Under the pieces are notes generated by a model. It made no database searches. It was given only the letters and a program-made list of their open reading frames with translations, and was not told where the DNA came from. Shown here in pieces: positions 15,001 through 35,420 of a stretch of 64,000 nucleotides of DNA. Numbering within the stretch: position 1 is the stretch's first letter; every line of letters begins with the position of its first letter. The DNA is from Ectocarpus siliculosus. Lineage: Eukaryota; Sar; Phaeophyceae; Ectocarpales; Ectocarpaceae. A program made the translations under genes and the position numbers. The stretch is taken from positions 6,962,300 to 7,026,299 of the forward strand of contig FN649751.1 in the NCBI GenBank assembly GCA_000310025.1. The letters are read 5' to 3'.

Positions 15001-18000
15001 CATGACGCCTGTTCTTTACTTTTTTTTGTTAGAAGGCAGGCGTTGTGTCTTGACTCTTGAGTATCAGCAACGCTATCGCTGGTATGTTGGTATGTTGGCA
15101 TGTTCGGTATGGGTAGAAGGGGCTCCATAACCCGTGTCGAGTGAAATAGTATGATATAATCGTGATGGGTACCCCCGCCCTTGCGTCATGTCGTGGACGA
15201 ACCATCCTCCTCTACGCGTATGGTTATGGATGGATATTTGCATGGACTCAAATGGATACGTGTCTGAGGGACTCCCCTAGCCCGAAGGACGATTGACCCC
15301 CCCCCTCCCACCGTGTCGAATCGATTGCATTCCACTATTCCATGATCTTGTCCGTGGATATTCAATGGACTGAACCGTAGTGGAATTACCGCAGCGCCAT
15401 TCTCTTGTGGATGCGGATGTTTTTGGGATGAACTCGACCTAACTGGGATTTCCGCACTCCATGTTCTTCCGAATGGATGTTTTGGGATCAACTGGACCTA
15501 ACTGGAATATAACCAGGGAGAGTTTCGGACGGAGCCGTTCCCGCTTCGAGTGTACCAGCAGTACCTGACGACGTACAGGCCGGCTCGTGATCTTCGCCCG
15601 GAGGATCGCAAGGCGATCGAGGTGGATCTGATATCCGACCTCCCCGACGGCTATGTGACGGAGGTACTACTGAATGTACAAGGCGTGTTGGTAACCGTCT
15701 TTTCAGGGTCTTGACTTGCGGGTGGTTCCACCATGCCCCTGGACTTTCTCTCTCTTGTTTAGAACAGCCAAAAATGAGAGGACGTGTGATTTTTGCCTGA
15801 AGATGAGGTGTCACTCCTGCTGTGACCTGTTTCCGGATGTTGGGGTGGCGTTTGTTGCTTTATGACAAACGTTGCAGCTTGATTTTGTTGGCTGTTTTCG
15901 CGTAGCGTGCTTTGGCCCCTCTCACGCGTGCCCACTTTTTTCTTTTCTCGGCCTTCGGTCTATTCACCCCCTTTTTAATGTCGTCCCGGCAACGTTTGAC
16001 ACGAAAAAACTCTCGACGAATGTGTCCAGGCGCACGGCTCGAACGATGACTACAGCATCAGTGAGGCCTGGATGCGGACTTACATGAAGGAGTCATCCGC
16101 TTCCAAAGCTGGTGCTTCCTCTGCTTCTACGACGCTTGCGATCGCAGGGGAGGGGGCGACGCAAGAATCGGTCGGGGGCGGTGCGAGCGGTGCCGAAAAC
16201 GGCGGCAATTTTCTCAACGACGAAGGCATCCGGGCGCAGGCGAGCAGTGATACATATTTCGCGCGAACGGGGGACGTAAACCCTCGTTCAATGCTTGTCC
16301 AGGGTACCATGCCACATGATGATATGCATAAATGTTCACCTAGACCAGTATTTTGGCAGATTGCACCAGTTTGAAAAATTGTGCTTCGTGTCGATTCATG
16401 AGCCCCCTGACGACAACAAGCGTTGGTTTTATTTTCTCTTTCGCTGTTCCAGGTCTCGAACCTGTTGGAGAAGATGTGCACCATGGTCTCGATCAATATC
16501 AAGAACGACAAGAACGAGGTGCAGAAGCAGCCCCTCACTCTGACAAGGTACAGGGTCAAGAGCGACTCCAAGGGTACCTCCGCGAACAGCAAGGGCGCAG
16601 GCGACAGCAAGGATGACGTGGTGGTGCCTGCACAAGAGGATGGCAGCCTAGGGCAGGCACAGCTTGAGGTGTGCCGCTTCGTCCTTGTTTTTTTTTGTGT
16701 GTGTGGCGGAAGGGGGGTGGGGGGTAGGATTTTTTGTTCAACTGTTGCTGCTGCTGTTGCTGTCGTTGCCTGTTTGTTATTGTAGGTTGATTGTTGATGG
16801 TGCTGTTGTTGTTGTCGCTACTGTTAAATGGGTGTTGTTTCTTAGGTCAGTGTTTGGTGCTGTAATGTCGTTTGTTGTTTTTGCTGGTTCCACGGCTGCC
16901 TGTGTCTTCGATCTAATGGTTTCTTCGGTTGGTAACGTGTCGTTCGATTTGGCAGCCCTTAGGCTGTGCGCTACTCCACCGTTTGACACGAACCATACCA
17001 TACGGGAACATGGTCGGCTTTATGGTGTTGTTTGGACGCGAAGGTCTACGCTCTGAAGGACACTGATATTCATCGTATCAAATTGTATGACGCGTCTTTT
17101 ACGCCTCCCGCGACTACAGGAGCGGAGCGTGTGGGGTATCGACTGCTACACCCGCAGCAACGTGGAGCACATGCTCGATCTCACGCTGGGCCTCAGCAAG
17201 GAGCAGGCTCAGCACTGGATCACTACGACCCTGCTCCCAGCCTTGAACCGCCAGAACGGGCCGAGGGGGGTAGACATGCTGCCGGCACTCCGAGATCTTT
17301 GCAAGGTACGGTTTCTGCACCCATTCTTCGCCAGAGAGAATGCTGCTGTTGGATGTGATGCATTTTCTAGGTTGTTGAGTTCTGCAGCTGTTTCTATCGC
17401 GCAAACAAGAAAATATAACACCGAGTCATGCAAGTATGTCACCGGTCGTCGTGAGTCGATCTATTTCCTGACGAAATGAACATGGGAAGCAACATGACCC
17501 GTGGGTGTTGACACTGTCCACACTGCTGTCGACATGAAGGTCATCCCGGACGGAGAGACGGAGGAAGAGCTGGAGGCCTCCAGGGCCCGCGCTGAGGCGG
17601 AAGAGTTCGAGCTAGGTCCGAAGGCCGAGGGGGAGGACTTGCTTGCCGCGCAGGCGCTGCTTCACGCTATCGAGGGGTGAGCGAGAGAAAGACACCGAGA
17701 GAGACGTGGTGACGGCTGTGAAAGTGCACGACACGCGTGATTGGTGCATTGTCGATTTCCTGCCGAGTCTTTCTTCCTCCTTGTTTTTTTTTTGCACCTT
17801 TTAAACTCAGTACCACATTTCTCTCTCGCTTTTTTTTTTCTCTGTTTTCTTTCATCAGTTCAATTGAACAAACGAATGAAACCAAGTAGAGGCATTCCAA
17901 GTCAGCCCTTTTGTTCTTTTGCAGGGGCGGAGTAGGTGAAGAAATGAAGAAAGGTTTTGACGTTGTTTATTCCATTTGAGTAGTCGAATCCCCTACGTCA

Positions 18001-21000
18001 ATGTCTTGCGTGTTCACTCTTGTCTTGTCTTCCTTCTTCATTTGGCTCATCTCTAATCCTTTATGTCAATGCCTTGTGTGTTCGCTCTTCTCTTGTCTTC
18101 CTTGTTTGATTGGCCCATCTCGTTTGCCCCAGGCTCCAGCTGCTACACCAGGAGCACCGTGCAACCGAGTCGTTGGTCCGGTGTTACTTCCACAGCCACC
18201 CCAAGGGCACCGGGGTCATCTGCAAGGCGAAAGAAGGACTCAAGGCGGACACGTTTGTGTCGGAGTACCTCGGGTGAGTGACGGAGTGAGAGATAAAAAG
18301 AAACAGAGAGAGAGGGAGAGAGAGAAAGAAATGGGATGCGAAACGGCATGAGCGAAGTTTGTCGCGCGTGCAACAAGAACAGTACTTAAGCGTAAAACAT
18401 TCTGGTGTGAGTCAGGGAGATGCGTCGATGTACGCCGAAAGGTAGAGCTTCTAAAGCAGATGGGACGGCTACATTTCCTTGCGAAATATCCACCTTAACT
18501 GTTGGCAGCCAAGAACAACAAGTGATCCATTCAGTTCAATCGGCTGAGGGCCCCGCGGTTGTCTTTTTTGCGAGAGAAAGGAAGGTGGCAGTTACTGGCA
18601 GATGCTACGGTTCCAGACCCAGTGGACATGAATGAATGCACACTTCCCGGTTGTTGCTTGCTGTTGCTAGGGGTAGCCAAGTGTGGCCCGCTACTGCAGA
18701 GTTGAGAGCAACGAGCTCATGCTGCTACACGCGGTGATCGAAATATCCTCTCGTCTGGGAATGCAACACTGTCCCGACATACGTTTCCTGCGGCCAACAT
18801 CTCTCCCCCCACACACACACTTTGAACGACTCCCCAGGGACCTGTACCCGTCGTGGCGTTGGAACGAGAAGCTGAGCGCCATCGAGGAGGCCAAGCTTAA
18901 GCACGGCCTTAAGCCAGACCTGCCCGACTTCTACAACTTCATGATGGAAAGACCCAAAGAGGACGCTCGCGGCTTCGGACTGCTTCACGTCGAGGTGAGA
19001 ACAAATGCTACTCCTATATTTTGTTGTATGCCCCTTGGGGGAGGGTTGGGAGATCGTTTGTCCTGGATATAGTTTGTGCTTTTCGGGAGGGTTTTGTTTT
19101 GTGGCGATGTCGTCTTTGGTGCCGTTTGCGTGTTGTTTTCGAAGCTCGGAGGTTTGCGTGGAAGCACGACTCGATTTGCTGTCCGGGCGGATGGTCTGTT
19201 TGCCGTGTGTAGCTAGTGGAATAGATTAGGAGGTAGCGCAACCGTTTGGAAGTGTTGGGTTGTTCCTCCGCCGACCGCTTAGTGCTTGCTGGCTCGGTGT
19301 CATGTGCACGTGCAACTCTTGGCTGGTTATTTTCGCTAAAAGTGGTCGTGTCTCTAAAACTTGGGTGACTACTGGTGTGTTGGTGTTGTTGTTCAACCAA
19401 GCCTTGGGACTGTGAAAGTCGTAGGTCGCCAAGATCACATATCGGCCGGGAAACGTGTTTGCTGACATCTTGCCTTCCTTAATTGCCTTCTCGTTTGCGT
19501 GCATTCCTCTTCCCCCTCCTGCCCCTGCTGCTGCTACTGCTCTGCTGCTGCTGCCGCTGTATTCCCGTTTGTGCTGTCGTGTGGGGGACAACACGCAGGC
19601 GGGAAACCACGTGGGCAACTTTTCGAGCTCCTTGTCCCACAGCTGCAACTCGAACTGCACGACGGCAACGTCGGTCCGGAACGGGAGGCTTTGTGTAACG
19701 CTCTCCACCACCCGCGCCATTGCCTTCGGTAAGAGAAGCACATGGCAGAGGTGTGGCAGAGAGTCCGGGGGCTTGATCGGGAAGCAGGCTAAAGACACCA
19801 AACTTCGAGTTTGTGGGGGTATTGGAGGGGGGGAGTGGGACCGATCCATTCCATAGTTTGAATGGCCCCTGGACAGCTGTGTCCTGCGACATTCGCAAAA
19901 CGTGTGGGCGTGTTTCGGCTGTGTTCCTGCGCTTTCGACTTTGTAGCTTGATAAAAATGAAACACAGTTGGGTGGGGTGCATCTTGGAGCACGTGAACCT
20001 CGAAGATGTGAATCTTGAACAACGTGCATGATGATCATCAGGAGAGGAACTGACGATGAACTACGGCGCCATCACCTCGTGCGAGACGGAGTACGGCAAG
20101 GCAGTGTGCCTGTGCGGCTCCAACCTCTGCCAGCAGAGCTTCATGACCTTCACGGGCATGGACAGCTACAGCAAGATCCTACGAGGACTGGGACCCCTCA
20201 TGGTCTTCCGCGGTCTGATTCAGGTCGAGTCAAGAGTTATTCCGGTGTCCCGCCGGGCGGTTTGGTTGTTCCATCATGTGTGCTGCTATGTGTGCTTACA
20301 AGTAGTGCACCTGTGCCGTGTAGACGGCGGGAGAATTGGCTGCGTACGAGTGGTGCCCGCTTAGAGCTAGTAATGCTTGCTGGTAGGTATTTTTCTGTAG
20401 GTCATGATCCGACGTGGCCCCGGGTACGTGAGCGCGTCGCAAGAGTGCGACCTGCTTAGCCACGCCCATTTTTTTCATTGATTGCCACCGTCCACGTGCT
20501 TACCCGGCCTGGTTACATCCCTTGCACCCTGCACCCTCCCTTTTTTTTCGTGGGACGCCTCCCCGCTGACACCCACCTTGTCATTGTAACGCGGTTCGGT
20601 AACAGTCTGCTGCCGACACACCGATATCCTCGGGCGAGCTGGAAACGCTGCAGAAGTTCGGGCTGAAAAGCTCAGCCCTGGGCGACCTCTGCCCGATCTG
20701 GCTCAAGAAGTTTGCCGCCATGCAGGTGGGGAAGCACACCAGACAGTACGTATGTAGCACCAGAGCCAGCAAAGAGTGGCACCGGCAGCAGTGTACGGGC
20801 GAGTCTTGCCTTTCGGGTTGCAATAGGTTGACTGGCTGACGTTTTTCTCCACACTTACGCGTGGCACCCAAGCCCAGGCCGCAGCCCGAAGAACCTTCCT
20901 TACGTTTCGTCTTCCGCCCTTGTGCCTTGACTCTTGTTGTTGTTATTGCTGCTGCTTGCTGCTGCTTTTGCTTCTGCTTCTGCTTCTGCTGCTGTCCACC

Positions 21001-24000
21001 ATTGGCAGCTTCGGTACGTGGAGTTCGAACGTCGAAAGCTTCCACCGACACTCATGGCCTCCGGGGACCACACCTACCAGGTAACGTGACGGCGATGATA
21101 CCCAGGACTCTGGTGGCAAAAGTGATGGAGATCACGTCTTGACTGTTGCTCCGCGAGCCCAGTACCATACCGATCGACAATGCCGCGCACCGAACATTAC
21201 CTCGGACGTGGTACCCGATCCCATTCACCGGAGGATGGTACTTAGTCGTGCTGTTGCGTGCATGTAGGAATGCTAACCTCCGGATCTGTTGTTTGTGGTC
21301 GTCTGGTTCAACGCCCGATGACGTATCTTTGTTAGAAACCTACGCACAAGACGGCGACGCGCTCAAGGACATAACTCTAGTGCCGTCCCCCGCCACCACT
21401 GTTGTTTTTTCCAGTCGGCCGACATCGAGAGCCACCAGGTCATGGACCGCCGCATCCGCAGCCTGGTGGAAGTGCTGAGCGGGGTGTACCACTTCCTTCA
21501 AGAGCAGAAAACGGCGCACTCCCGCCCCCTCCCGGAGGGCTTCGAACCGCCCGCGCCGGCGGCAGGAGGAAGAGCGGGGGCGGCCAACGAAGACCCCGCG
21601 ACGTTGGCGGAGAGACCACCGCTGAAGCTTCTGGTAGACGACGAGGTGGTGGAGGCGCTGTGGAGCGGGCGGCAGAGCATGATGCGGAGGCTGCTCCGGA
21701 GGCTGGAGGCAATATACTGTGCGAAATTGGTCGTGGAGACGCCCGATCCTGAGGATGTGAGTTTTTTTCTTGCTTCGGAGTCTTGCTGGTGTTGCTGCTG
21801 CTGCTGCTGCTGCCTTTCGTAGTCGTCTCCGTTGTCGTTGGTGCTTCGGCTGCTGCTGCTGCTGCTGCTGCGGCAAGTTGCGTATGTTTATTATTAGAGC
21901 TTCGATCGCTCCAACCGGCCGTTCGGCTAACCCTTGGGTATGACTTGCTTTTTCTCATTGCTTGGTTTTTGTTTAGTTGCTGCCTCATTTGTTTCTCGCT
22001 CAGGTGGCCATGTGTTATTGATTGATGCGAAGCTAAAAGGCACCTCCTCCAACATCGCACACACATCTTGCTGAGTCCAATGCCATCCATGATGGCGAAA
22101 CCTCGACATTCCTCATCTTCGCGGGGATACCATACCAACGTCTACGACAGCCTTACATTTTCGAGCGACCCCCCCACTCCCCAATACGCCTCTTTGTCAG
22201 CATCTCGCGCAGCGATGACACTATTCATTTGCCTTTGGCTTTTTCCCTCTTCGTTTCCCGACTTACCCCGTGTCCCGATAGATTCAGCGCCGCCCTGCAA
22301 GAAGGGTGACGAGGAGACCTGCTAGACCGAGGGCATCAGGGGGCGGGGGCACGTTGCGCGTTGCTGTTCCCCGTCGCCCGCGTGTGGCGCAGCCGGTGAT
22401 TTTGCGAGAGCGCATCCTAGTGTGGGACATCTCGAGGCGGAGGTAGGCGTTACTGCTATCGTTGCCGCCGATGCTCTTGTTGCCGACGTCATGGATCGCG
22501 TGGGATGGTTGCAAAGAGACCTGCCTAGCCTAGCTGTGGCATAGTTTCCGTTGGTTCGACTGCTGTGCTGTGGCATAGTTTCCGTTGGTTCGACTGCTGT
22601 GCTGTGGCATAATTTCCGTTGTTGGTGTTGCGAAGTGCGGTGTTGATTTTTGAACCTCGTCAGTCCGCCTACCATGCCATGCGTCTCTCGTTCCTTCTCC
22701 GAAGCCTCATAGCTCGTGTGAAAGCATGCTGCATCGCCACACGGGAAGACAAAAAATCCAGCCTGCATGTGTTGCGCGCGACTTTCATGGAATGCAATGG
22801 TCGACACCCTTGTGTGGCAAGGCTGCCTGCTGTGCATCGCTGTGGAGAATCGACGGCCTTACCGACTATTCGTGCCCGCTAGACGACCCGCACACTAGCA
22901 CCGCTGTTTCACCTAACCTACTGCCGACGGCTTAAACTGTTTGTTCTCATCGCGGACTTTTGGGTGTGCAGGTGCATCATGCTTGAGGCACCCCCGCGTG
23001 ACGAGCTGGTAGCCTGGCTTAACGCGCACCCGAACGCGGAGGTCTACACGGGACAGGGCGACCCACATGACGGTCCGGGTGAGGGCGGGATCATGGCTGA
23101 CAACGGCGAGCCGCGGTCCCAGCACGACATCATTTACCTCTGGGATGCAATCAATCGGAGACGCCTGCCTCTCGAAGGTCAGTGGGCGTCGTTTTGAGAT
23201 GCGCCTTAACTCCTTCGTACGCTAAACGCGTTCCGAGGGAAGTGCTGTCAATTGGGTGATATTCCGGTTGGACAGAGTGAACGTTACGTTTGTGAATAAT
23301 AACACGCCGCGAATGGACGTGTTGTGCAGCGAGGACTTTGGGTTGGGTCAACGCCTTTGGGGGAGATGAGCGCTGCAGTTGCGTTGTGTGTGTAGACTTT
23401 CACGTCTCTCTTTCCGTCTCTCTTGCTCCTCATGCCCCCTTTCTTCTTGCGCTCCAACGCTCAACGTAGGCTCAGCGCGTTTTTTCTTTGTTTGCTCTTG
23501 CCAAACCCTTCCCCACGAGGCCTTGTGTCTTCCTGTTAAACATACAATACAACAAACTGGTACAGCGTACTGTAATAAAAAAAATGACGCGCTTTTTAGG
23601 CCCCTATCGCTATGATCACTTGTGTGTCTCTGATGGCTTTATTCCCGCTCCCCGCCTCTCATCCACAGAGTGTCCAAAGAGGAGGAACGTGGCCGAATTC
23701 ATCGCCGTCCGGCCGCACCTGTTCCTCTACGCCGGCCAAGACATACCCGAGCAAATCGCGTGGTACGGTGCGTGGGAGGCGAGGGGGGTCGCAGACGCCT
23801 ACGCGGCGGTGACGGCCCTGGCGGGCGGGGACGAGGACGAGCGCATCCCCCTGTGGAACACCGTCACCAAGGAGAAGGTCACCGGGAACGGTGAGACTTC
23901 GGGCTGTGAACGTCTGTTGGTTGGCGAACAACAGTCTCTCTCTCGCTCGCTCTCTCTCTACCCCTTCGGTGCTTGTGCCCTCTTGGTGGCCACTTGTTTG

Positions 24001-27000
24001 CGTTACTACCATTATGCTGTCGCTCTTCTCGCCCACATTGCGTGTGATGAGACCGCAAGCAATCCTCGTCAGCAGGCAGTACTCGCCTCGGCGTGAGACC
24101 TGGCAAGTTTTGATGTGCGAGAGGATCGCATGCTCGCCAGCCTAACACGATTGCACGCGGCTGCATCGCCTGAAAGTCCTCGTTCATTTTTTTCGTTCAT
24201 TTTTTTTGTTTTTCACTTATTGACTACACCCGCACTCCGCCGAACCCCTCCCATTCCCACTGCATGGTTGCCAATTTCCACCCCGGTGCCTCCGTGCGTG
24301 TTGTCGCAGATGCTCCAAAGCGCGAGGGGATCCACATGTTCCTTCGGACACGTCCGCACATGCAGCTCTACACCGGCCAGGGGTATGAGCCGGACGACGC
24401 CGGGGCAGTGCCGCCTCCACCACCACAGCAGCAGCGGCAGCAGCAGCAGCAGCTGCAGGATCAGCTGCAGGATCAGCTGCGTCAACAACAGCATCAGCTG
24501 CTGCAGCTGCAGCAACAACAGCAGCGGTACGCCTCAGACTTCGCGTCATCTTCACCGCGCACCGATGGGTCGCCAGAAGCCAGAGCGTCGGCGGACGCGA
24601 ATGAGACCGCCGCCGCCGCTGCCGCCGCCGCCGCTGCCGCCGCCACCGTCGCTGGTGCCGCAACCGCCGCTTTCCACCGGGCAACGGTGGATCAGGTCAG
24701 CGGTCGCCATGCTGCAGGGCATCCGCCTGGACGTAGCCTATCCCCCTGCAACGTATGGGCCCGTCAGCCAGGTGATCCCAACCAAGCCGGACGGACCACG
24801 AGCGGTAGCGCTCCGGCGCCGGGCGGGGGCGGGGGCGGCGACGTCGCCGGTTCTCCGGCGGTGCGTTTTGAAGGCGCCGTACCGGAGAGGGCAGCGGCTG
24901 CTGTCCACCGCCACGAGGCGCAGTCGACGACAACAACGGCGGCAGGTGGGGCCGGTAGTCATCAGGCGCGCGCTCCCGCGTCCCCGTCGTCGGTGTCATC
25001 GCTGGAGACAGGGCGCGATCACGACCCGCGCGCCCCGCAGACGGCGCTCTTGGCCATGATTGATACCGCGTCCTCCTCCCTGAATGGCTTCGACGGGAGC
25101 ACGGTGTCGCCTAGGTCGGCCGGGTGGGCCGGCCAGTTGCAGCCGGGGACCGCGGCGGCGGCAGCCGCCGCTGCCGCTGCCTCTGCGATGGTGAACGGCG
25201 GCTACACGTTCCACCAGCAGCACCACGCCCACCAAGCGCCCACCGTGATCAAGCAACCCCTACTTGTTCATCAGCAGCTGCCGCAGCCGCAGGCCTTGCA
25301 GCGCTGGGGTCAGCCCTCAGTGCCGCCGCTTCCCGCGGGGCCCGTTTGGATGCCCCCGCACGGGATCGCCACGGCGGCTGCGGCGGCAGCGGGGCCCGGA
25401 GGGGCGGCGAACGGGTTCATGCCCGTTCCGTGCGCCCCTGGGTCCATGGCGGCAGCAGCGGCGGTGACGCCCGAGTATGCCTTCAACGGGAACTTGCCGA
25501 GGTTCCAACCTAGCATCGCGTGGGGCGGGGGGTTCGTGGGGCAGATGGGCGCGTGGGGCATACCCCCCTCTGCCATCCCACAGGCGGGGCTCGGCGGAGT
25601 TCCTACGGCGGGATTAGATCTCGCTGCGCTAGTGCAGACTCTAGATGGCACCTCCAAGGCATCCAAGGCTAGTGCAGCAGCAGCAGCAGCAGCAGCGACC
25701 CCCGTGAAACGGGCGCCTGAGCCTGAGAGGCGGGCTGCTCCTCCTTCCGTACTTGGGGCTGGAGGCGCTGCTCAAGCTGCCGGTGCGATGCATGCTGCGT
25801 CTGCTACTGCTACTGCTAATGTTGACACGGGTCCAGACGCGAGCGCTGCGGAAGCGAGCTTAGTGGGGGTACGCCGGGTGCGCGAAGAGCCGAACGGCGA
25901 CGGCGGCTTGGGCCAAGGGCAGCAGCAGCAGCAACGGCAGCAGCAACAGCGAGAGCAGCAGCAGCAACAGCAACAGCCGCCGCCGCAGCAGCAACAGCAG
26001 CAGCCGCAGCCGCCGCCCCAGCAGCAGCAGCAACAACAACCGCCCCAGCAGCAACATTATCAACCGCCGCAGCAGCAGCAGCAACAACATCAACCGCCGC
26101 CGCAGCAGCAGCAACAACAGCCGCCGCCGCCGCCGCCGCAGCAGCAGCAGCGGCAGCAGCAGCAGCAGCAGCATCAACAGCAGCAGCAGCGGCCGCACCA
26201 ACAGCACCAACAGCAACCCCTCCACGACCAGCGCGTATCGACACACACGCCGGCACCAAACAAGAGGTTCAAGGGCAGGGGGGGTGCCGTTCTCAGGGGG
26301 CGTGGAGGCGCCGTGCTGAAGAACCAGAACAAATCTCCCAGCCCAACCTCGTCATCCGCGAACCTACATGCCGGCGGCGGCAGTGGCGGCAGGGCGGCGG
26401 CGGCAAACGGATCCGGGGCGGCACCCTCACAGACCGCGGAGCACCCGCGGCAAGGCCCCAGAGGGGGCGACGCGGATGGCGGTGGCGTGGCATGTAACGG
26501 GGATAGTGGGGCCGGAAAGCGGCCCGCCGCGGACCGTGTTGCGGGGGAGGGGCTGGTAGGGCGTAAGAGACCCGCGGCTAGGAAGGGCAAGGGACCGGCG
26601 GTCAAGGGGCTTGTGGGTGGCAAAGCGCCTGCGGCCAACAAGCCGGTAGCGGGCGGCAGTGGGCGCGGCGTTAGCGACGCTGAGGTCAGCGGCCGTTTTT
26701 TGTTGTTGTTGTAGACGGACTCTTTGTTGTAGTTGATCTTTTCCGCTTCAAGACATCGACGAAGCTTCCTTTCGGCGCTCAATTCTCAAGGGATATGATC
26801 CGGTGTGCCGCAGTCTAGATCCCAATGTCGTGTTCTGCACGCGGAGAAGTTCGCCGCAAGGCTTTTTTCTGGAACTTGTCCTTGGCCTTGTTGACCTGTT
26901 CCCGTTTTTCGTCCTTCCTTGCTGCTGTGGGGGCACTTGTTCGTCTATCAATCGTCTTTGGCAGTTACAAAGAATCCTGTCCGGGGGCGACCCCGATGAC

Positions 27001-30000
27001 CGCATATATATGTGGGACCCCGTGAGGGAGACCAAGTCGTACGGCGTGAGAGCTCCCAAGCGGAAGACGCTGCCCGAGTTCATCAAGGTATGATATGTAT
27101 GCGAGAAAGAGCCGTCCAGGAGGCCAAGCGGTGCCGGCACCCCCGCTATGCCACTGCGGTTTGCCTTCCAGCCCCGAGGAGAGGCCGTCCTCCCATGTAC
27201 AATGCTGTCGTGTACCTTTCTTGACGAGATGCCCACGAATCACACCGGAGCCGTGTGGTATGCATGTCTTGGGTATGTTGTTTTCTCACCGCCCTTATCT
27301 GGCCGCTTGCGAAATAACGGGGAGCGGGAGGCTATCCAGGCCGCCGCCTTGTTTCGTTCTTGACGTGATGGGCATCATAACTCATGTTAGGGTGGGGGGC
27401 AATATTGTACCCCCGTGGCCGCCGCCGATGCTCCCCAATTTGTCCGCCTTTGTAACCTTTCCCCAAGCCGTCATTAATCAACGCCCGCATCCCCTCTCCC
27501 CCCTCGCTCCCTCGTCGTTTTGAAGAGACATCCCTTGTACGAGCTCTACGTGAACCAGGACTCGAGGGCGAAACCCGGCTCGTCTGGCTCTCGGCCTTCG
27601 GTAACGTCTGGCTCTCGGCCCTTGGCATCGTCTGCCTCTCGGCCTTCGACAACATCTGGCTCTCGGCCATCGGCGGCCTCAGCGGCGGCCGGCCCACCCC
27701 CGTCGAAGCTCGCAGCACAGGAGACCTCTCCCGTCAAGACGACGACGATCCGACCCCTGGACCGTAAGGCGTACAATGCCGGGAGGGATGTCATCATGAA
27801 GATCCAGAGCAAGCTTGACAATGATGTGGTGGCCCACAAGGCTCATCTCAAGAAGGTGAGAGAGCGAACCCGTTTGTCTTCAGGCTGGTAAGCGCCGCGC
27901 GTGGAATGGTGCCGAGCCCCGTGATGAATCGTTCACCGCGCGCGACCTCTGCAGACATAGACTTGTGAAGATGGCCGCCAGGGTGCGAGTTGTACCACGC
28001 CTTGAGATGGACCCTTCTCCGTCTGATCACTGCGATGTTTCCTGTCTCGCTCTACGTGAACTTGGTGCTTCACCATATTTAGCTTGCCCTAATCGTATGT
28101 GTCGTCCTCCCGCCTGCCCTACGCTGAAACACGACCATACGCCGATTGGTCGTTGTTGTTCCGTACGTGCAGGCGCTGCTGGAAGTGCGAGAGCTGTTGC
28201 TCGGCCTCCGGACGCTGCCGAACGCCCGCAACAAGGCGGCAGCGGACGTCCTGCTCCTCCTGGCCCACACGAAGACCTTCGCCGAGCCAACCAACTACGC
28301 CACGGTGGTGGGGGACCCCGTCCAGGTCCTGGCGAAGGAGATCGGCAACAACGTGCCCAAGGCGGTGCTTGCTCGTTACAAGACCGAGAAGCGCTTGGCG
28401 ATGCAAAAGAGAAAGAAGCGAGACTCGAGGGCGGCGGCTGCGCTGGCCGCTGCCGCCACCGCCACCGCCCCCGACGGAGACGCAAGAGGAGGAGGAGCAG
28501 CATCAGCAAGGGTAGGGGCGGTAGACTCTCCGTCGTCTCCCCCGTGCACACCGTCCCGAGCAGATGCTGGAGGTGATGGTTTTGGTGGTGATGGTGATGG
28601 TGCTGCCTCTACTCCTGGGAAACCTTCCCCAGCGGGTGTGGCCACAGCCGCCGGTGACGGTGATGGTATGACGACACCTTCGGCGAGGAGGGCGGGAGCA
28701 GGGCAAGCGTCATCGCCAGACGAAAATGAAACCGCTTCGGGCGCTAGCGATCCCGCCACCACCGCCGCCACCGCCGCCATCGCCGCCGCCGCCTCCGCCA
28801 CCGCCGCCGCCCCCGCTGGCAACGGGAAGGGAAAGAACAAGGCGAGGAGCGGCAGCCTCGCCCGCGCGTCGGCCATGGTTAGGGCCAAGGCAGAGAAGAC
28901 AGCAGCGGCGGAGGAAGCGGCTGCTGCTGCTGCAGCGGCGGCGGCGGCGGCGGCTACGGATACTCCGAAGGTCGCGGAAAATGGGAAAACCCCTGAGAAT
29001 GCCGCTGAAAATGAGAGCGGATCGTCCGACTGCGAGTCGGAGGCAACAGCACTCGCGAGCGAGGGGGAAGGGGCACCAGGAGCGGCGGCGGCGGGTACGG
29101 CGACAGCAGTGAACAGCGGCAGGAAGCAGCCGGCCGCAAGGGCAACGGCCGCCAAGTCTGCGTCGCCGGCGCCTGCAACCGGTGCGAAGCCTGCTAGCGT
29201 CGGCAGCAAGGGGAAGAAGCAGGGCGGGTGGAGCAAGAGAGCCAGGGCTCGACAGAGAAGAAGCACGCCGGCGAGGCCGAAACCCCCTCCGAAGCCGCAG
29301 GGACCGAAGCCGGGAGACGGGTGCCTGAAAGGAGACGAGGTGTGTTTGGCGCCGCTGTGTATGTTGTGTTGGCCGGTGTTCGTCGTGGCAGGCTCCACTG
29401 TCTTGAGCAGCTAGTTGTGGGTGTACTATGGACCGCTAGAGATGCCCGGTTCCGCCGATCACCATATTTCACTGTCGCTCGCGCACAGATCCTGTGCGGT
29501 GGCAACGTAGCAGAAAAGTGCCGCTCTTGTTTCTTCCGCATGATTTCCGCTTTCCTCATATCCAGTTTCGCTCTCAACTCCCCTTGTTTGTCCACGGTCC
29601 TTCCGTCGCGGAAAATTGTCTGCGTTCGTTGATCTGGTGCAGGTGATCCACGAGTACTGGCCTGTTTCCGGGCCTCACTTCGTTCTGGCACAGCTCCTGC
29701 AGTGGCACAATGATGGAGAGGGGGGTAACCCCAACGAGCCTTTCGACGACAAGCTCCGAGGGTAAGCCGCCTTCTATTACCTACCCACACACCGTGCAGC
29801 GCGGACTATAATAGCGGGTCGTGCTACTCTGCCATCTATCGCTCACGTACTTCGGTCGGCGATGCGGTATGACTTTGTTTTCGACTATCGTTTTAGCTTG
29901 CATGAAATACGATATTTCGCCTTTGTCGCTCATATTGTATCGGAAGTGGGGACATGCGGGTGTTTTTTCTCTTGCGCCGGTTGTGCCGAGCAGAAGCCTT

Positions 30001-33000
30001 GCTTTCTCTCGCACCCGCCTGTCCCATTCGCGCCTCCCCCCGGACACAAACATCTGCGACATTTGCTATATGGACCCCCACGCAACCGCGCGCCCCCCCG
30101 CAGTTGTGTCCGCCTCCCGGACGTCCTAGAGGCGTACGAGGGCATCGGCAGCTACACCAAGGACCAGCGGAAACTCCTCGTGACCCACCTGGAAGACCCA
30201 GAGCAGAGAAAGCACCCCTGGCCCGCCAAGCTCGACGTCGCCTTCGGCAAGGAGGACCCGGAAGAGCTCGCTGCCAAGGAGGCCGCCGCCTCTGCCGCCG
30301 CCGCTGTAGGCGAAGATCGAGGAGACCGTTCGGCGGCAGGAGACGCCGGTGCCGGTAGCGGCGGCGGCGGCGGCGGCGGCGCCGAATCGGCCGCCTCCCC
30401 CAAGGGCGACGCGCCCGGCAGCGGCGGCAGCAGGGGACCGGGGGGGAAGTTCACCGGAAAGGGTAGACGCGCCGGGTTCGGTGGCAAGGGGGCAGGGGCG
30501 GCCGCGGGGATGGCGGCCCCCGCCGGCGGGCTTGTGCTCCTCGGAAGCCCCATGGTAGACGCGACTCTGGAGGACACGCAGGGGCTCAAGGAGGTGATCG
30601 AGATCTTGAAGCGGGAGACCGGGCTCTCGGAAGGCGCTAACGGGGACGAGGGGGCGATCACTTTGAGGATGGAGGTGTGTATGATGCTTGTGCGGGCGGG
30701 GGCTGTGGGGTAGGTGGAGGTGGTCGGGAGTTTGGGGGCGCAGGTGGGGGCAGTCGGGCCGAGGAGAGAGAAGGGCAGCGACGGGCCCGGCTGCTGACGC
30801 CTTGCGTTTCGGTTTTGAACGAAGGTCATGATTTGTGTTTCACCGCACGTTGACTTGGATGTTTGATCGACCAACGGGCATGGGTGACCACGATATATGG
30901 CAAGGTTTTGTTTCGGCAGATCCGTGCACGTCTCACCTCTCATGACTGTTTTAAACAACACATGTCTGGGTCGGCGTCGGTGGAACAGGAGGACGGGCCG
31001 CAGAACAGCACACCCACTCCGTGGGCTCAGTGCGACAGGTGCCTCAAATGGAGGAGAATACCCTGGCACATCGACCCTGAAACGCTCCCAGAGTTGTGGA
31101 CTTGCGAAAACAACACCTGGGATCCAGAGACGGCCAGCTGTGACGTGAGCTTTGTTCCGTCGTTCATATTGGAAGTGTGTACATGCAATGTTCTTATGGA
31201 ATGTTATTTGTACAACGTGTCAAATGTTTGTCTTGTATCATTCGAAGCTTCACTACGGTCATCATTTTTGTCTTTGGTATTCGTTTGTGTGCGATGCTGC
31301 CCGTCGCTGTCATCGTTGCTCTCTTGTAGCCTAGCCAGCCGTGCGATGGAATGGGCGAAGTCAGGAAAATGTGTGGTGTGAGCTCAGCAAAACCGAAGTC
31401 GTGGCACCACGTGCGTTGCTCTTGTTCATCAGGTTAATGCTATCAGCCGGTCGCTCCCCCCTGCCCCGCTTTCGACGTGTGTCCTCCTAAATGGCCTGTT
31501 TGTTATTTGAAACCTCAAATGTAGGTGGCAGAGGTTGTGGACGAGGAGGACATGGAGGCCTCGGTCATTGCCGGCTCCGCTATCGTCGAGGAGAAGGCGC
31601 TAGTCGTGAGCTCTTGGATCGATGTTTTCTGCAACCAGACGCACAAGTGGTACCCCGCTAAGGTAATCAAGGAAGACAGGGAGGGAGACCGCGTGCTGGT
31701 GCAGTTCTTCGGCTGGTCGGAGAGATACAACCAGTGGGTGTCCAAGGTGCGTTTGGTGGCGGTGCGTTTTTATGGCCGGTTACAGGCTGGGGGTTAGGGG
31801 AGGGTGCCTGATGGTGGCCGCGAAACTGCATACTTTTCTTGATTTTCTTGCTTTTTTTGCGGCATGTTGTTCTGTGTTGAACTTTCGAGAAGAAGATCGC
31901 GTGGTACATCTGTTGTGGTGATAAAATGATGCTTTTTTGCCGGGCAGTATTTGCGTTTGCAGCTATTAGTTTTTCCACGTTTTTCGGTCATGTGCCCCTG
32001 GCTGGCCCAACTACCCGCTGGCGCTTCAATGCTGAGCAGCCAGTTCGAGAAACCTGACGTGTATGGTATTCGTTACCCCCATCCCCCGACTTGGTTGGAG
32101 GTGGTTCGGGGATCAGGCCGTAACTTGGCACGATTTTTTACCATCATCACTGGGCGTGTTGTAGGGAATCGAGCTTTGCATGTCTTCGTCCGAGTTCCCG
32201 CCCTCGCCCTTTCACTGACATTGCTGCCGTCCCGCTGCCTTCGCCTTTGCCGGTGACGTTGTTCTCGGTGGAACTCACGTTGCGCAGAAGAGCAAGGACC
32301 GCATCCGCCGGGTACACACCCATACCCAGGAGGTCGCACCCGCCCGCAAGTGGCTCAAGTAAGTAGACAGGCCGGCCAATCAAGTATCAACGGCTAGCGC
32401 AAAGAATGGGCGGAGAAGCTTTGTGTGCCAGCGTTAGTGTTTTGGAGAGGGGAAGGCGATGGGCGTTGTTGGTGCTCAGTATGTTGATTGTTGTCGACCG
32501 TTTTTTGTTTCGAAACACACCGGTTTCCGCGGTCGAGGCGATGCATACATGATACCAGCAACTCCTGGAGATCATGACGCCCCGCTGTTGCCACTCACAA
32601 ATGCACGCGGTCACTCACTGTCGCCGCCGCCTCGTCCTCTGGAACGTTCACGTATGCGGCAGATTCCGCATGGTGTTGTGTTCACTACCAAATATTGTTG
32701 AAATCTTGCTGCTTGTAGGTTCATCGCTAGAGTGTTTTGGGTCCTCTCTTACGCTTCTTGCTTCGGTTGGTCTTGTTTTTTGTCATCAGTAAAATGTACG
32801 GCCCGGGGTCCGGCGGTGGGTCCGAAGCGGAAAGGAGCGAAGCGGAGACCAAGCACCCGAAAAAGGGAGGGAGCGATAGAGATGGAGGTGCATCAGGCAG
32901 CGGGTGTGGCTCCAACGACAAGCGAAAAGCCGTGGTGTTGGCGAAAACCGCCACACCAAAGGTGCGCATCTCGGCGGGTCAGATGGGACAGGTGGAGACG

Positions 33001-34905
33001 AGGGATTTGCGGGCAGAGACAGAGGCACAGACAAGCAGAGGCAAAGAGATGCTCGAACTTCTACTTATGTATCAACCATGTCGATGGTATCGTACTCGTG
33101 TTGGCCATAGTTCCACCGAATCTGCAACTTGGCCAGAGGCACCACCCGGAACACCGTATCATACGCAACGCCAATTACTGGTTGTCCCGCACCTTTCCCC
33201 CGAACAAGCACCTCTTGCCCCACCTGAAGAAGGCCCATCATTTCTCTCTCCGCCCCCCCCCCACCAGTCTGACTTCGTGTACTACGACGGAGCCCCCAAG
33301 AGTTCGCTTTCGAGAGAAGAGAGAACCGAGGCGCGCCGCAATCGCACCCCGGCCGGACCGCATCCGCCGCCCAACGCTAGGTCGCCCCTCGTCCGCAGAA
33401 AGCTTGGCGGGGCTGCCAAGAGGAATATGGAGAGAAAAATGGCAGCCACGGCGGCGGCGGCAGCGGCGGCGGCATCAGCAGCGGCGGAAGTGGAGACTGG
33501 CGAAGCTTTGGGTGGCGAAGGTGATGGCAGCGATACGCCTGGCCGGCTTGGGGGGGCAGAGGCGGCGGCTGGTGATTGTGGCCGCGGAGACAATTTTGGA
33601 ACCGAATCAAAGGATTTCGAATCCGCAGCTTCGGCGGCGGCGGACCGCGCGGTCCACAGCAAGGCGGCGGAGCACTTCCGGAGCTGGACCTCCAACGGAG
33701 ACAGCGAGGGCGCCGTGGCGGCGGCGACGGCGGCGGCGGCGGCAGCGGCGGCCCTGCTGAAGCGGGGCGAGACCCCTTTCAAGCAGGACGAAGCGGACCA
33801 CGCCAAGAGCCTGCTGTCCGGGCTGGCGACTGCCTTCCATTCGTCGCCGACGAGGGTGGCGAAGGAGACCTGGAAGCGATCATCGGGCGGGTTTGGCGAC
33901 TCGCCAGCGGAGCAAGACAACGGCCGTGGCAGGAACGGAGCGGAGGCCGGGGGGCGGTCCATGCTGACCATCTCGGCTCGGGACAGAGACCTCGCCCACT
34001 CCCCGTCGTCGTCGGTGTCGTCTTCGCCGGTTAGGGGCAAGCGGGTCTCGCCCATGTCTTCCCCACTGTCCTCCAGGATGATGACCCCTCACCTGTCCAT
34101 GGACTACCACCGGTCCGAGAGCCCGGGAATCGGGGACTCCGCTGCTGGGACTGAAAATGGCGGCGACCCCGCTCGGACGGAGAACGGCGACAGTCAAGCA
34201 GCCGTAGATCATCAGCACAGCGGTGGTTCGAACGGCGATCAATCGCACGACGGCGGAAGCGACCGCGCGGACGAGTGCAACAACTCGGGTTGTCTCGAGG
34301 GTGGGGATGGCCATGCCCCGAAGACGCAGCCTCCTTGCTCTGCGTCCCCTCTCCTGCGCAGCGCCATCAACGGAAACAGCAGCGGTGGTTCGTGTGCCGC
34401 CTCCGCGCCCTCCTCCACCACGGCGGAAGTCAAAGGCACTCGGCAAGATGGGGAAGACAAGGCCAAGGGCGACGACAACGCCAGGGACGACGCTGCCAAT
34501 CCCATGGCAGGCGAAGGGGAAACCACTCCCAGCACCAACACTAGCCGAAGCAGCAGCAGCACCACCGGCAGCAGCAACAACAGCCCTACGGCTTCCAACT
34601 CTGCTGACAAGCCAAGCTCCCCGGTCTGCCCGCGCCTCCCGACACAGGCTGAGGCCGTTGACGGCGACGCTTGGGCGTGCAACGGCCGCCGGGACGCCCG
34701 AGTCCCGGTCCGAGTGCCCCCCACCCTGGCCTGGAACCCGCCCCCATCCGACCTCGCCTCCGGAGGCTTGCAGCGCTCTTGCAAGCGACGCAAGATGCTC
34801 AGCGACGTCGCTCCTTCGCCGTCCTCGTCCTCCTTGACGCCGGGCCTGATGGAGGCGGAAGGGTGTGCTGCTACGGCGACGCGTCGGCCTTCTTCCGCCC
34901 CATAG
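10084..34905 (+). CDS. ATXR3/SDG2-type histone H3K4 methyltransferase with CW and chromo-barrel domains, about 30 exons
   Basis: Exons: 10084-10251, 11897-12019, about 12437-13948, 14619-14687, 15517-15663, 16030-16275, 16453-16668, 17120-17305, 17540-17676, 18133-18273, 18838-18994, 19599-19728, 20042-20223, 20606-20725, 21009-21080, 21415-21756, one or more unresolved near 22.3-22.6 kb, 22972-23177, 23669-23890, 24310-26684, 26965-27087, 27526-27855, 28173-29339, 29643-29761, 30104-30674, 30989-31144, 31525-31746, 32288-32358, 32790-32961, 33268-34905. Nearly all borders are GT-AG with matching phases. The SET, post-SET and C-terminal blocks follow the order of plant ATXR3/SDG2, which trimethylates histone H3 lysine 4 in the nucleus. 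The CW zinc finger and chromo barrel downstream should bind methylated histones. Doubts: exons 1-2 or 26-30 could belong to separate genes, and one segment near 22 kb is unsolved. Confidence 0.75.
12437..13948 (+). CDS. SET gene exon 3: long N-terminal exon, mostly disordered
   Basis: Open from an in-frame ATG at 12437 (or an acceptor just upstream) to GAG|GTGAGT at 13948, 504 codons. It opens with an alpha-helical stretch, FIHQQVKDMEKLISRIEKED, reminiscent of the first helix of a bromodomain, but the rest of that fold is absent. The middle is Ala/Ser/Pro-rich low complexity. Near the end come a conserved-looking acidic-aromatic stretch (FDYEPLLDWAGLRADIAGMV), a basic cluster (RRQRRRRRR) and an acidic run. 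The basic cluster is a plausible nuclear localisation signal. If exons 1-2 are not joined, 12437 is the natural start. Confidence 0.7.
14619..17305 (+). CDS. SET gene exons 4-8: region before the SET domain
   Basis: Five exons, 14619-14687 (23 codons), 15517-15663 (49), 16030-16275 (82), 16453-16668 (72) and 17120-17305 (62), are all phase 0 at both ends. Every one has an AG acceptor and a GT donor. Sequence landmarks are RYAYAVKRSVDDLI, GEFRTEPFPLRVYQQYL, VSNLLEKMCTMVSINI and SVWGIDCYTRSN. The last resembles the VWGID(C/P)YT motif that I recall ahead of the SET domain in plant ATXR3. No separate enzymatic domain is seen; the region probably scaffolds the SET fold. The donor chosen for exon 6 (GAC|GTAAAC) is the one that keeps the phase. 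Confidence 0.75.
17540..20223 (+). CDS. SET gene exons 9-13: catalytic SET and post-SET domain
   Basis: Exons 17540-17676, 18133-18273, 18838-18994, 19599-19728 and 20042-20223 chain in phases 2, 2, 0, 1. The S-adenosylmethionine-binding G-x-G is GTGVICKA, followed by FVSEYLG, DLYPSWRWNEK, DFYNFMMERPKED, the cofactor loop SLSHSCNSNC, then the catalytic GEELTMNYG and the post-SET zinc motif CLCGSNLC. The combination of YPxWxW, FYNxxxERPK and the CLCGSxxC post-SET immediately after the SET domain is the signature of ATXR3/SDG2 rather than Trithorax or SET2. All residues expected for activity appear present, so the enzyme is probably active on H3K4; the substrate is inferred from the family. Confidence 0.9.
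20606..21756 (+). CDS. SET gene exons 14-16: ATXR3 C-terminal homology, first part
   Basis: Exons 20606-20725, 21009-21080 and 21415-21756 (40, 24 and 114 codons) are all phase 0. They encode LGDLCPIWLKKFAAMQ, YVEFERRKLPPTL and a longer helical stretch with DRRIRSLVEVLSGVYHFLQ and LLVDDEVVEALWSGRQSMMR. As I remember Arabidopsis ATXR3, the matching stations are FERTKLP and a similar VRYVMR...LVDELL helix pair, in the same order after the SET domain. The function of this helical region is unknown. Introns here carry CTG/CTT-rich pyrimidine tracts just before the acceptors. Confidence 0.75.
22268..22560 (+). CDS. SET gene: conserved segment with unresolved exon borders
   Basis: Two short pieces look coding but do not chain in phase with the exons around them: FSAALQEG at about 22268-22291 and, in another frame, LVADVMDRVGWLQRDLPSL ending near 22535. 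Both resemble consecutive stations of the ATXR3 C-terminal region (LSPHLEEG and LKELQRSLLWLRDEIRDLP, as I recall them). The flanking exons require a total length of two modulo three. At least one small exon or a different border is therefore missing from my model. A sequencing error is also possible. Confidence 0.4.
22534..22620. repeat. 34-bp tandem repeat, about 2.5 copies, in an intron
   Basis: CTGTGGCATAGTTTCCGTTG starts at 22534 and 22568 and recurs at 22602 with one change (AATTTCC), a period of exactly 34 bp. It begins at the 3' end of the conserved segment described above and may affect the choice of splice donor there. Confidence 0.8.
22972..23890 (+). CDS. SET gene exons 18-19: first two copies of the PKR/GQ-W repeat
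   Basis: Exon 18 (22972-23177) encodes APPRDELVAWLNAHPNAEVY then TGQG, a spacer, and IIYLWDAINRRRLP. Exon 19 (23669-23890) encodes CPKRRNVAEFIAVRPHLFLY then AGQD, and later IPLWNTVTKEKVTGN. Both exons end in phase 1 right after the W(D/N) half, so the introns sit at the same place in the repeat. Two more copies follow in exons 20-22. I know the W-N...K(I/L)xGN-APxRxNLxEYLxxHPxxEVYxGQD pattern as a recurrent unnamed module in eukaryotic nuclear proteins, but I cannot assign a function. Confidence 0.75.
24310..26684 (+). CDS. SET gene exon 20: third repeat copy followed by a very long polyglutamine/low-complexity exon
   Basis: The 2,375-nt exon opens after GTCGCAG with APKREGIHMFLRTRPHMQLY and TGQG (repeat copy 3), then enters low complexity. 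A Gln-rich block lies at about 24423-24530, Ala runs near 24608 and 25153, and a Gln/Pro-dominated tract spans about 25918-26220, written mostly with CAG and CAA codons. A Gly/Lys/Arg-rich basic tail ends GAG|GTCAGC. Large open frames on the opposite strand are only poly-Leu and poly-Ala shadows of these repeats. Such tracts are usually disordered and can drive condensates or coactivator contacts. Length variation between strains is expected. Confidence 0.8.
26965..27855 (+). CDS. SET gene exons 21-22: fourth PKR/GQ-W repeat copy and linker
   Basis: Exon 21 (26965-27087, 41 codons) reads DPDDRIYMWDPVRETKSYGV then APKRKTLPEFIK. Exon 22 (27526-27855, 110 codons) continues RHPLYELYVNQD, so this copy is split inside the PKR half. 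Then follows a five-fold GSRPS-like tandem and a helical stretch, KAYNAGRDVIMKIQSKLDND. Both exons are phase 0. The intron between them is pyrimidine-rich before its acceptor. Confidence 0.75.
28173..29339 (+). CDS. SET gene exon 23: helical start and Ala/Ser/Lys-rich linker
   Basis: After GTGCAG the exon encodes ALLEVRELLLGLRTLPNARN and an amphipathic stretch to VPKAVLARYKTEKRLAMQ, probably still part of the conserved helical region. The rest of its 389 codons is Ala-, Ser- and Lys-rich low complexity ending in a basic cluster (WSKRARARQRRS), and the exon closes GAG|GTGTGT in phase 0. The basic cluster is another candidate nuclear localisation signal. Confidence 0.7.
29643..30674 (+). CDS. 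SET gene exons 24-25: ATXR3 C-terminal homology, last part
   Basis: Exon 24 (29643-29761) encodes VIHEYWPVSGPHFVLAQLLQ and ends in phase 2. Exon 25 (30104-30674) completes the codon so that the junction reads LRGCVRLPDV, then EAYEGIGSYTKDQRKLL, KHPWPAKLDV and, after a Gly/Ala insert, LLGSPMVDA. Plant ATXR3 has the stations TRGCLSLPDV, RPWPKDK and GSPMFDA in this order (from memory), which is the strongest support for the family call outside the SET domain. Exon 25 ends ATG GAG|GTGTGT in phase 0, so translation continues into another exon rather than stopping here. Confidence 0.8.
30989..31144 (+). CDS. SET gene exon 26: CW-type zinc finger
   Basis: The exon follows GGAACAG, is 52 codons long, phase 0 at both ends, and carries WAQCDRCLKWRRIPW, LPELWTCENN and a final Cys in ETASCD. 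This is the CW pattern of four zinc-binding Cys and conserved Trp. CW domains read histone H3 with methylated Lys4, the mark expected from this enzyme. An ATG at 30961 is in frame just upstream, so a separate downstream gene starting there is possible, but only 286 bp of unremarkable sequence separates it from exon 25 and the phases match. Confidence 0.85.
31525..32358 (+). CDS. SET gene exons 27-28: chromo-barrel/Tudor-knot domain
   Basis: Exon 27 (31525-31746, 74 codons) contains WIDVFCNQTHKWYPAKVIK and VLVQFFGWSERYNQWVSK. Exon 28 (32288-32358) continues KSKDRIRRVHTH and ends CTCAA|GTAAGT in phase 2. The WYPAKV and F-x-GW-x-x-RYxxWV signatures are typical of Tudor-knot/chromo-barrel folds found in MRG and MYST-type proteins, which bind methylated lysine or nucleic acid. 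It follows the CW finger directly, giving a double reader module. Confidence 0.8.
32790..34905 (+). CDS. SET gene exons 29-30: disordered C-terminal tail
   Basis: Exon 29 begins at 32790, completing an AA|T codon, and probably ends at CCAAAG|GTGCGC (32961). Exon 30 begins after CCACCAG at 33268 with SDFVYYDGAPKSSLSREER and runs to a TAG at 34903-34905. The frame is open straight through the proposed intron, so intron retention would also be readable. The tail is rich in Ala, Ser, Gly and Asp, with one helical stretch (RAVHSKAAEHFRSWTSNGD). No domain is recognised. The gap starts 17 bases after the stop, so alternative 3' structure cannot be excluded. Confidence 0.65.
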
Positions 34906-34921
34906 AAGAAAAATACATCAC

Positions 34922-35420
34922 NNNNNNNNNNNNNNNNNNNNNNNNNNNNNNNNNNNNNNNNNNNNNNNNNNNNNNNNNNNNNNNNNNNNNNNNNNNNNNN
35001 NNNNNNNNNNNNNNNNNNNNNNNNNNNNNNNNNNNNNNNNNNNNNNNNNNNNNNNNNNNNNNNNNNNNNNNNNNNNNNNNNNNNNNNNNNNNNNNNNNNN
35101 NNNNNNNNNNNNNNNNNNNNNNNNNNNNNNNNNNNNNNNNNNNNNNNNNNNNNNNNNNNNNNNNNNNNNNNNNNNNNNNNNNNNNNNNNNNNNNNNNNNN
35201 NNNNNNNNNNNNNNNNNNNNNNNNNNNNNNNNNNNNNNNNNNNNNNNNNNNNNNNNNNNNNNNNNNNNNNNNNNNNNNNNNNNNNNNNNNNNNNNNNNNN
35301 NNNNNNNNNNNNNNNNNNNNNNNNNNNNNNNNNNNNNNNNNNNNNNNNNNNNNNNNNNNNNNNNNNNNNNNNNNNNNNNNNNNNNNNNNNNNNNNNNNNN
35401 NNNNNNNNNNNNNNNNNNNN
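34922..35420. other. Assembly gap (run of N)
   Basis: 499 undetermined bases between the end of the SET gene and the gene-poor right part. Any 3' untranslated region of that gene lies in or beyond it. The true length may differ. Confidence 0.99.

Follow-up and report, generated by a model that had tools for sequence, protein, structure and literature searches.

The window analysed here, 64,000 nucleotides (nt) of the brown alga Ectocarpus siliculosus (contig FN649751.1, positions 6,962,300 to 7,026,299 of the forward strand), carries the gene of an ATXR3/SDG2-type SET protein. The domains of the enzyme are real and its exon chain is open, and it is likely to be a fusion of a histone methylation writer with a reader. 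It seems, as far as the sequence can tell, that one gene joins a part with a CW zinc finger and a Tudor-like barrel to the ATXR3-type writer through an intron with its donor at 30674; a probability of about 0.65 is given to this reading. Another feature of the gene, an insert of BRK-type repeats within the writer half, is a firmer novelty than the fusion. The writer-reader fusion was first proposed in a sequence-only reading of the window, made by a model, and that observation was partly confirmed. The domains and the intron phases were found as described, and the exon number, the span, the label of the barrel and the supposed absence of a gene break need correction.

The gene model was built by hand from the genomic sequence under the assumption of a single gene, from the ATG at 12437 to the TAG at 34905. 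All joins are in frame, there are no internal stops, and the introns are 177-829 nt long, with a median of 382 nt. The domains, the open and consistent exon chain and the repeats are direct observations. The span proposed earlier, 17540-32358, covers exons 7-26 of the longer model, and the exon preceding the CW exon, previously called exon 25, ends at 30674 and becomes exon 23 if counting starts with the ATG at 12437. The SET/ATXR3-type exons, the CW exon (exon 24, 30989-31144) and the barrel exon (exon 25, 31525-31746) are present as proposed. The main features, with lengths in amino acids (aa) and scores in bits, are as follows.

12437-34905, forward strand: whole gene model, 28 exons encoding 3729 aa, GT-AG introns and an open frame throughout
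18221-20067, forward strand: SET domain, aa 868-989, exons 8-11 (PF00856, 44.6 bits, cut-off 22.4)
20101-21062, forward strand: first part of SDG2_C, profile positions 2-100 (PF19633; the piece spanning exons 6-14 scores 74.1 bits, cut-off 27)
22396-23071, forward strand: BRK-type repeat 1, aa 1258-1306, exons 15-16 (Pfam BRK 18.2 bits when taken alone, under the cut-off of 23)
23114-23754, forward strand: BRK-type repeat 2, aa 1321-1370, exons 16-17 (no Pfam match when taken alone)
23827-24395, forward strand: BRK repeat 3, aa 1395-1444, exons 17-18 (Pfam BRK 33.3 bits, above the cut-off of 23)
24310-26684, forward strand: exon 18, 2375 nt, the end of BRK repeat 3 followed by a stretch of some 760 aa with much Q, A and P, mostly of low complexity
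26986-27573, forward strand: BRK-type repeat 4, aa 2215-2264, exons 19-20 (Pfam BRK 18.5 bits, under the cut-off of 23)
27784-28361, forward strand: second part of SDG2_C, profile positions 198-284 (39.5 bits in an uncut piece, cut-off 27)
29643-30227, forward strand: third part of SDG2_C, profile positions 289-372 (26.9 bits in an uncut piece, cut-off 27)
30537-30620, forward strand: end of SDG2_C, profile positions 384-411 of 420 (10.7 bits, weak)
30675-30988, forward strand: intron 23 as proposed, or else the junction between two genes, with a 3' end, a gap and a 5' end (9.56 bits for the donor and 2.85 for the acceptor; alternative acceptor at 30920)
31022-31533, forward strand: CW zinc finger, exon 24 with the final residues in exon 25 (PF07496, 63 bits, cut-off 27.5)
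31612-32314, forward strand: Tudor-like barrel, exons 25-26 (PHF20L1 Tudor1, 1.1e-6)
33268-34905, forward strand: last exon, a low-complexity tail ending at the stop TAG

The donor at 30674, the end of exon 23, speaks for a single gene. Its score is joint fourth among the 27 donors of the model and is reached by 12 of the 4077 other GT sites of the window and by 2 of 1192 antisense GT sites of the gene body. The splice matrices behind these figures are rough, having been made leave-one-out from 26 or 27 introns in a single hand-built model. The decoy GT and AG sites may include true sites of other genes. The coding score drops across the donor from 0.67 (23 codons before it) to -0.06 (12 codons after it). 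The proposed intron, 314 nt long, is ordinary beside the other introns of the model, and two acceptors, at 30920 and 30989, would keep the frame. A chance same-strand neighbour with a CW finger is unlikely, because CW matches are few in the genome searched (G000, 189 Mb, with the window on its contig C26), a single SDG2_C locus was found there, and neighbouring genes of Ectocarpus, according to PMC4513859, tend strongly to alternate between strands. The joins of exons 23/24 and 24/25 are in phase 0, as noted in the sequence-only reading. Neither this nor the presence of an in-frame ATG weighs much, since 19 of the 27 introns are in phase 0 and 9 of the 27 exons have an open in-frame ATG ahead of them.

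Other observations weigh against a single gene. The earlier statement that there is no obvious gene break does not hold: an in-frame stop, TAG, at 30711-30713, which translation would meet if the donor were left unspliced, and a candidate start, an in-frame ATG at 30962-30964, both lie inside the proposed intron. The acceptor at 30989 is weak (22nd of 27; of 3819 other AG sites in the comparison, 734 score at least as high). The frame-specific score falls little after the donor, from 0.52 to 0.23, and positions 30675-30800 are unusually G-rich. By 30620, before the join, little of the SDG2_C profile is still missing. A stronger in-frame acceptor at 30920 scores 7.36 bits, with 72 of 3818 other sites as good, and the codons that it would add look non-coding: 4.3% of exon windows are as low by the frame score (14 codons) and 0.0%, after rounding, by the other score (13 codons). 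The alternation of strands is not strict locally, as the next coding-like stretch found downstream, at 47387-49237, is also on the forward strand; upstream, coding-like stretches at 6476-7283 lie on the reverse strand.

These points bear on the main rival explanation, which is considered distinctly less probable than the fusion. It holds that two genes follow each other on the same strand: the ATXR3 gene would end at the TAG at 30711-30713, and the ATG at 30962 would open a second gene, for a CW-Tudor protein of about 760 aa, in which case the reader acts in trans or in some other place. The nine codons from this ATG to the acceptor, MSGSASVEQ, fit a separate gene, being the most coding-like of the 27 pre-acceptor stretches by both scores, at a level reached by 1.7-2.7% of open intron windows. 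The non-coding look of the codons upstream of the ATG, the weakness of the acceptor and the near completeness of SDG2_C favour two genes as well. The same explanation would leave a strong donor unused and allow just 248 nt for a 3' end, a promoter and a 5' end; five ATGs between 30714 and 30961 would burden the separate mRNA, and the ATG at 30962 has a C at position -3. In-frame ATGs as open as this one are found before a third of the exons anyway, and a tandem on one strand runs counter to the tendency described for Ectocarpus. In a third explanation the gene has two products: the long fused enzyme is one, and the other comes from a short CW-Tudor mRNA that starts at an internal promoter near 30962. 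Both sets of signals are present, and this would account for the strength of the donor as well as for the coding-like look of the start, but it requires both events, has no direct support and is regarded as improbable. The weights behind this order are judgements and not computed probabilities.

The fusion into one gene stands as the better-supported reading, as had been proposed, with splice, coding and gene-order signals that disagree among themselves. An alternative last exon of the ATXR3 gene at 30744-30797 is disfavoured: it appeared coding by one score and not by the frame-specific one, and the 69-nt intron that it needs is shorter than any of the 27 introns here. The poly(A)-like words AATAAA, ATTAAA and TGTAA do not occur in 30675-30961 and are equally absent from 35421-36500, past the final stop; they were set aside for this reason and because the organism may use another polyadenylation signal. 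No retrocopy spanning the join was found in G000, where the seven matches were four of the gene's own exons, two of another CW gene and one weak match. In viral_contigs, the CW-Tudor and SET queries gave five and three pattern matches, and in genome_contigs the SET query gave 18, with none confirmed; these two collections are viral and prokaryotic and have no bearing on brown algae.

The assignment of the writer half to the ATXR3/SDG2 type is supported by a SET domain and by SDG2_C, the family's own C-terminal domain, both above cut-off, in agreement with the identity proposed earlier. In the piece of exons 6-14 another SDG2_C stretch was also listed, without coordinates. A smaller uncut piece matched profile positions 22-100 with 45.5 bits for the piece, and a second piece, from which low-complexity stretches were removed beforehand, reached 69.8 bits (cut-off 27). 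Both SDG2_C matches in G000 lie inside this gene, and all four matches of the SET piece at an E-value of 0.001 are its own exons. By the SET sequence alone, NSD2, NSD1 and SETD2 come nearest among solved enzymes, and MLL1 and SET1 rank lower. Judged by family, the SET domain with SDG2_C would methylate lysine 4 of histone H3 (H3K4); PMC9372134 describes the catalytic domain of ATXR3 as atypical for an H3K4 enzyme, yet mediating H3K4 trimethylation (H3K4me3) in Arabidopsis.

The gene shares with plant ATXR3/SDG2 the order of SET followed by SDG2_C. A GYF domain is found in the plant type, whereas a scan of exons 1, 3, 4 and 5 and of the trimmed pieces, in which a diverged GYF could escape, detected no GYF or GYF_2 domain before SET. 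The composition given for vanilla ATXR3 in PMC13132833, GYF_2, SET and SDG2_C, agrees with the earlier remark that the plant protein lacks a CW-barrel module. Further differences here are the interruption of SDG2_C by four BRK-type repeats and an exon rich in Q and A, and, if the halves are fused, the CW finger and Tudor-like barrel that follow.

SDG2_C adjoins SET, and the insert that interrupts it includes four related BRK-type repeats of about 50 aa each, a feature that the sequence-only reading does not mention. When a profile was made from three repeats and the fourth was scored against it, repeats 1 to 4 reached 31.7, 45.8, 49.0 and 41.7 bits, respectively; none of 2000 shuffles did as well in any of the four tests, in which 1607-1792 of the shuffles received any score. 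Seven columns are invariant across the four repeats. A search of the Protein Data Bank (PDB) with repeats 1-3 was weak, placing BRK structures of CHD7 and CHD8 at E-values of 0.21-0.45, behind chance-like matches to Klotho and glucosidases (0.05-0.09). The repeats are therefore assigned to BRK by the Pfam scores and by their mutual likeness. Their kinship to animal BRK domains is, by sequence, distant. Exon 18 separates repeats 3 and 4, and no Pfam family scored above cut-off in it.

The genome searches were run exon by exon. The Pfam BRK search of G000 gave one weak match below cut-off and missed the repeats of this gene too, because introns split them. With repeat 3 as the query, four matches were obtained at E-values up to 10, all of them in this gene and two being the query itself, a result that does not show BRK to be absent elsewhere.

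The BRK domains of BRG1/BRM and CHD7/8/9 share the Pfam BRK profile with the repeats. The second proline of the groove, as the groove is defined in PMC7096718, is kept in all four repeats and the AP pair in three of them, and the conserved tryptophan of the helix is tryptophan in repeat 1 only and phenylalanine in repeats 2-4. The same source likens BRK to the peptide-binding GYF fold, gives its function as unknown and names as its bearers remodelling ATPases and one splicing regulator of Drosophila. BRG1/BRM and CHD7/8/9 are remodelling ATPases with one or two BRK domains, whereas four occur here in a methyltransferase; the array would thus put a domain known mainly from remodelling ATPases into a histone methyltransferase.

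The CW finger scored 61.6 bits in the search of G000, and its closest solved structure is the CW domain of MORC3 (3.5e-10). Both share a WxQCDxCLKWR core and an acidic tail, and the alignment shows both tryptophans of the pocket to be kept (W2989 and W2998). An aspartate of the tail stands at what we take to be the position of MORC3 Glu453. According to PMC9043364, CW domains read H3K4 methylation through a pocket of two tryptophans completed by a C-terminal element (Glu453 in MORC3), and the preferred methyl state is not the same in ASHH2, MORC3 and ZCWPW1. Given the two tryptophans and the relationship to MORC3, binding of methylated H3K4 by this CW finger is plausible. The ATPase module of MORC3 was not found here, and the binding is a prediction from sequence. 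The CW matches in G000 number at least three, at no fewer than two places. Another gene, on the minus strand at G000:C26:5447500-5456500, has long exons of low complexity with several CW fingers; by eye, three stretches there look CW-like, and two matched the Pfam model.

The barrel was called a chromo-barrel in the sequence-only reading and, by sequence and structure model, is better called Tudor-like. All its Pfam matches are below cut-off: Agenet with 24.6 bits (cut-off 27), MSL3_chromo-like with 16.7 (28), Tudor-knot with 13.6 (20.8), and also PWWP and MBT. Its best solved relative is the first Tudor domain of PHF20L1, with which it shares identical residues at the cage positions Y29, F47, W50 and Y54; PHF20L1 D23 and Y24 fall outside the alignment and appear by eye as N and Q in the barrel. 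A structure model of exon 25 alone has a mean predicted local distance difference test score (pLDDT) of 64.4, a moderate confidence, and its top Foldseek matches are Tudor domains, the best with an E-value of 0.051 and none below 0.05. PMC13285377, where the cage residues are defined, reports that PHF20L1 Tudor1 binds mono- and dimethylated H3K36 and H4K20 and that the tandem Tudors bind DNA, losing methyl selectivity on nucleosomes. The barrel need not, therefore, read H3K4, a further point against the proposed loop. Elsewhere in the genome, a frame that stays open for 1767 aa and matches Agenet weakly 11 times (G000:C27:3539805-3544097) possibly encodes an Agenet repeat protein.

If the two halves are fused, recruitment is the likeliest way for the protein to work. 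The product of the single gene would then be a very large ATXR3/SDG2-family histone methyltransferase, with SET and SDG2_C methylating H3K4 and with the BRK-type repeats and the Q/A-rich stretch in the middle of SDG2_C probably serving as protein-binding modules. The intron after SDG2_C would link this enzyme to the CW finger, which would bind tails already bearing H3K4me2/3, and to the barrel, which may contact a second methyl-lysine or DNA. The enzyme would be held on nucleosomes carrying its own product, and its SET domain would methylate nearby tails, so that active promoters are re-marked. We infer from this that H3K4me3 could be spread or maintained by the writer's own reader; the transcript, every binding and catalytic activity and the feedback loop of this protein are predicted. 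It is less likely than not, though conceivable, that a single polypeptide with a BRK array in its SDG2_C core writes H3K4 methylation and also reads it, through a CW and a Tudor-like domain of its own, as a self-contained loop for active promoters in a lineage that has lost PRC2 and DNA methylation.

In ASHH2/SDG8 the SET domain writes H3K36 and is preceded by the CW domain, whereas the SET domain here is of the ATXR3 type and the CW finger follows it. ASHH2 is similar in having a CW reader and a SET writer in one protein, and differs in that its CW prefers H3K4me1 (PMC9043364), while the CW finger here is nearer to that of MORC3. Unusual fusions are described for stramenopiles, among them a SET and JmjC fusion in Phaeodactylum, confirmed by cDNA by the authors (PMC3145265). 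Brown algae are described in PMC13076208 as lacking Polycomb repressive complex 2 (PRC2) and DNA methyltransferases other than those of the DNMT2-like kind, with H3K4me3 marking active promoters. An H3K4 writer with its own reader, if fused, would be a direct candidate for the persistence of promoter states in these algae. Among the matches listed in keyword searches of the literature, no title or abstract opening names a protein that combines an ATXR3-type SET domain with BRK or with CW. PMC7784034 states that the methyltransferases of Ectocarpus have novel domain structures in many cases; the architecture may already be tabulated in its supplementary table, and annotators may have seen it.

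The last exon had no Pfam family at E-values up to 1. A run of about 500 N at 34923-35420 begins just behind the stop codon and makes the 3' end of the gene unreadable. A possible cassette exon of 48 nt (acceptor 5.74, donor 5.01 bits) lies at 31330-31377, between the CW exon and that of the barrel; it was kept out of the model, as it would come to lie between the CW finger and its acidic tail, which it would alter. Near the edge of the window, at 21-1019 on the reverse strand, lies a coding-like stretch of short repeats similar to those of the stretch at 47387-49237, and both appear TPR-like by eye.

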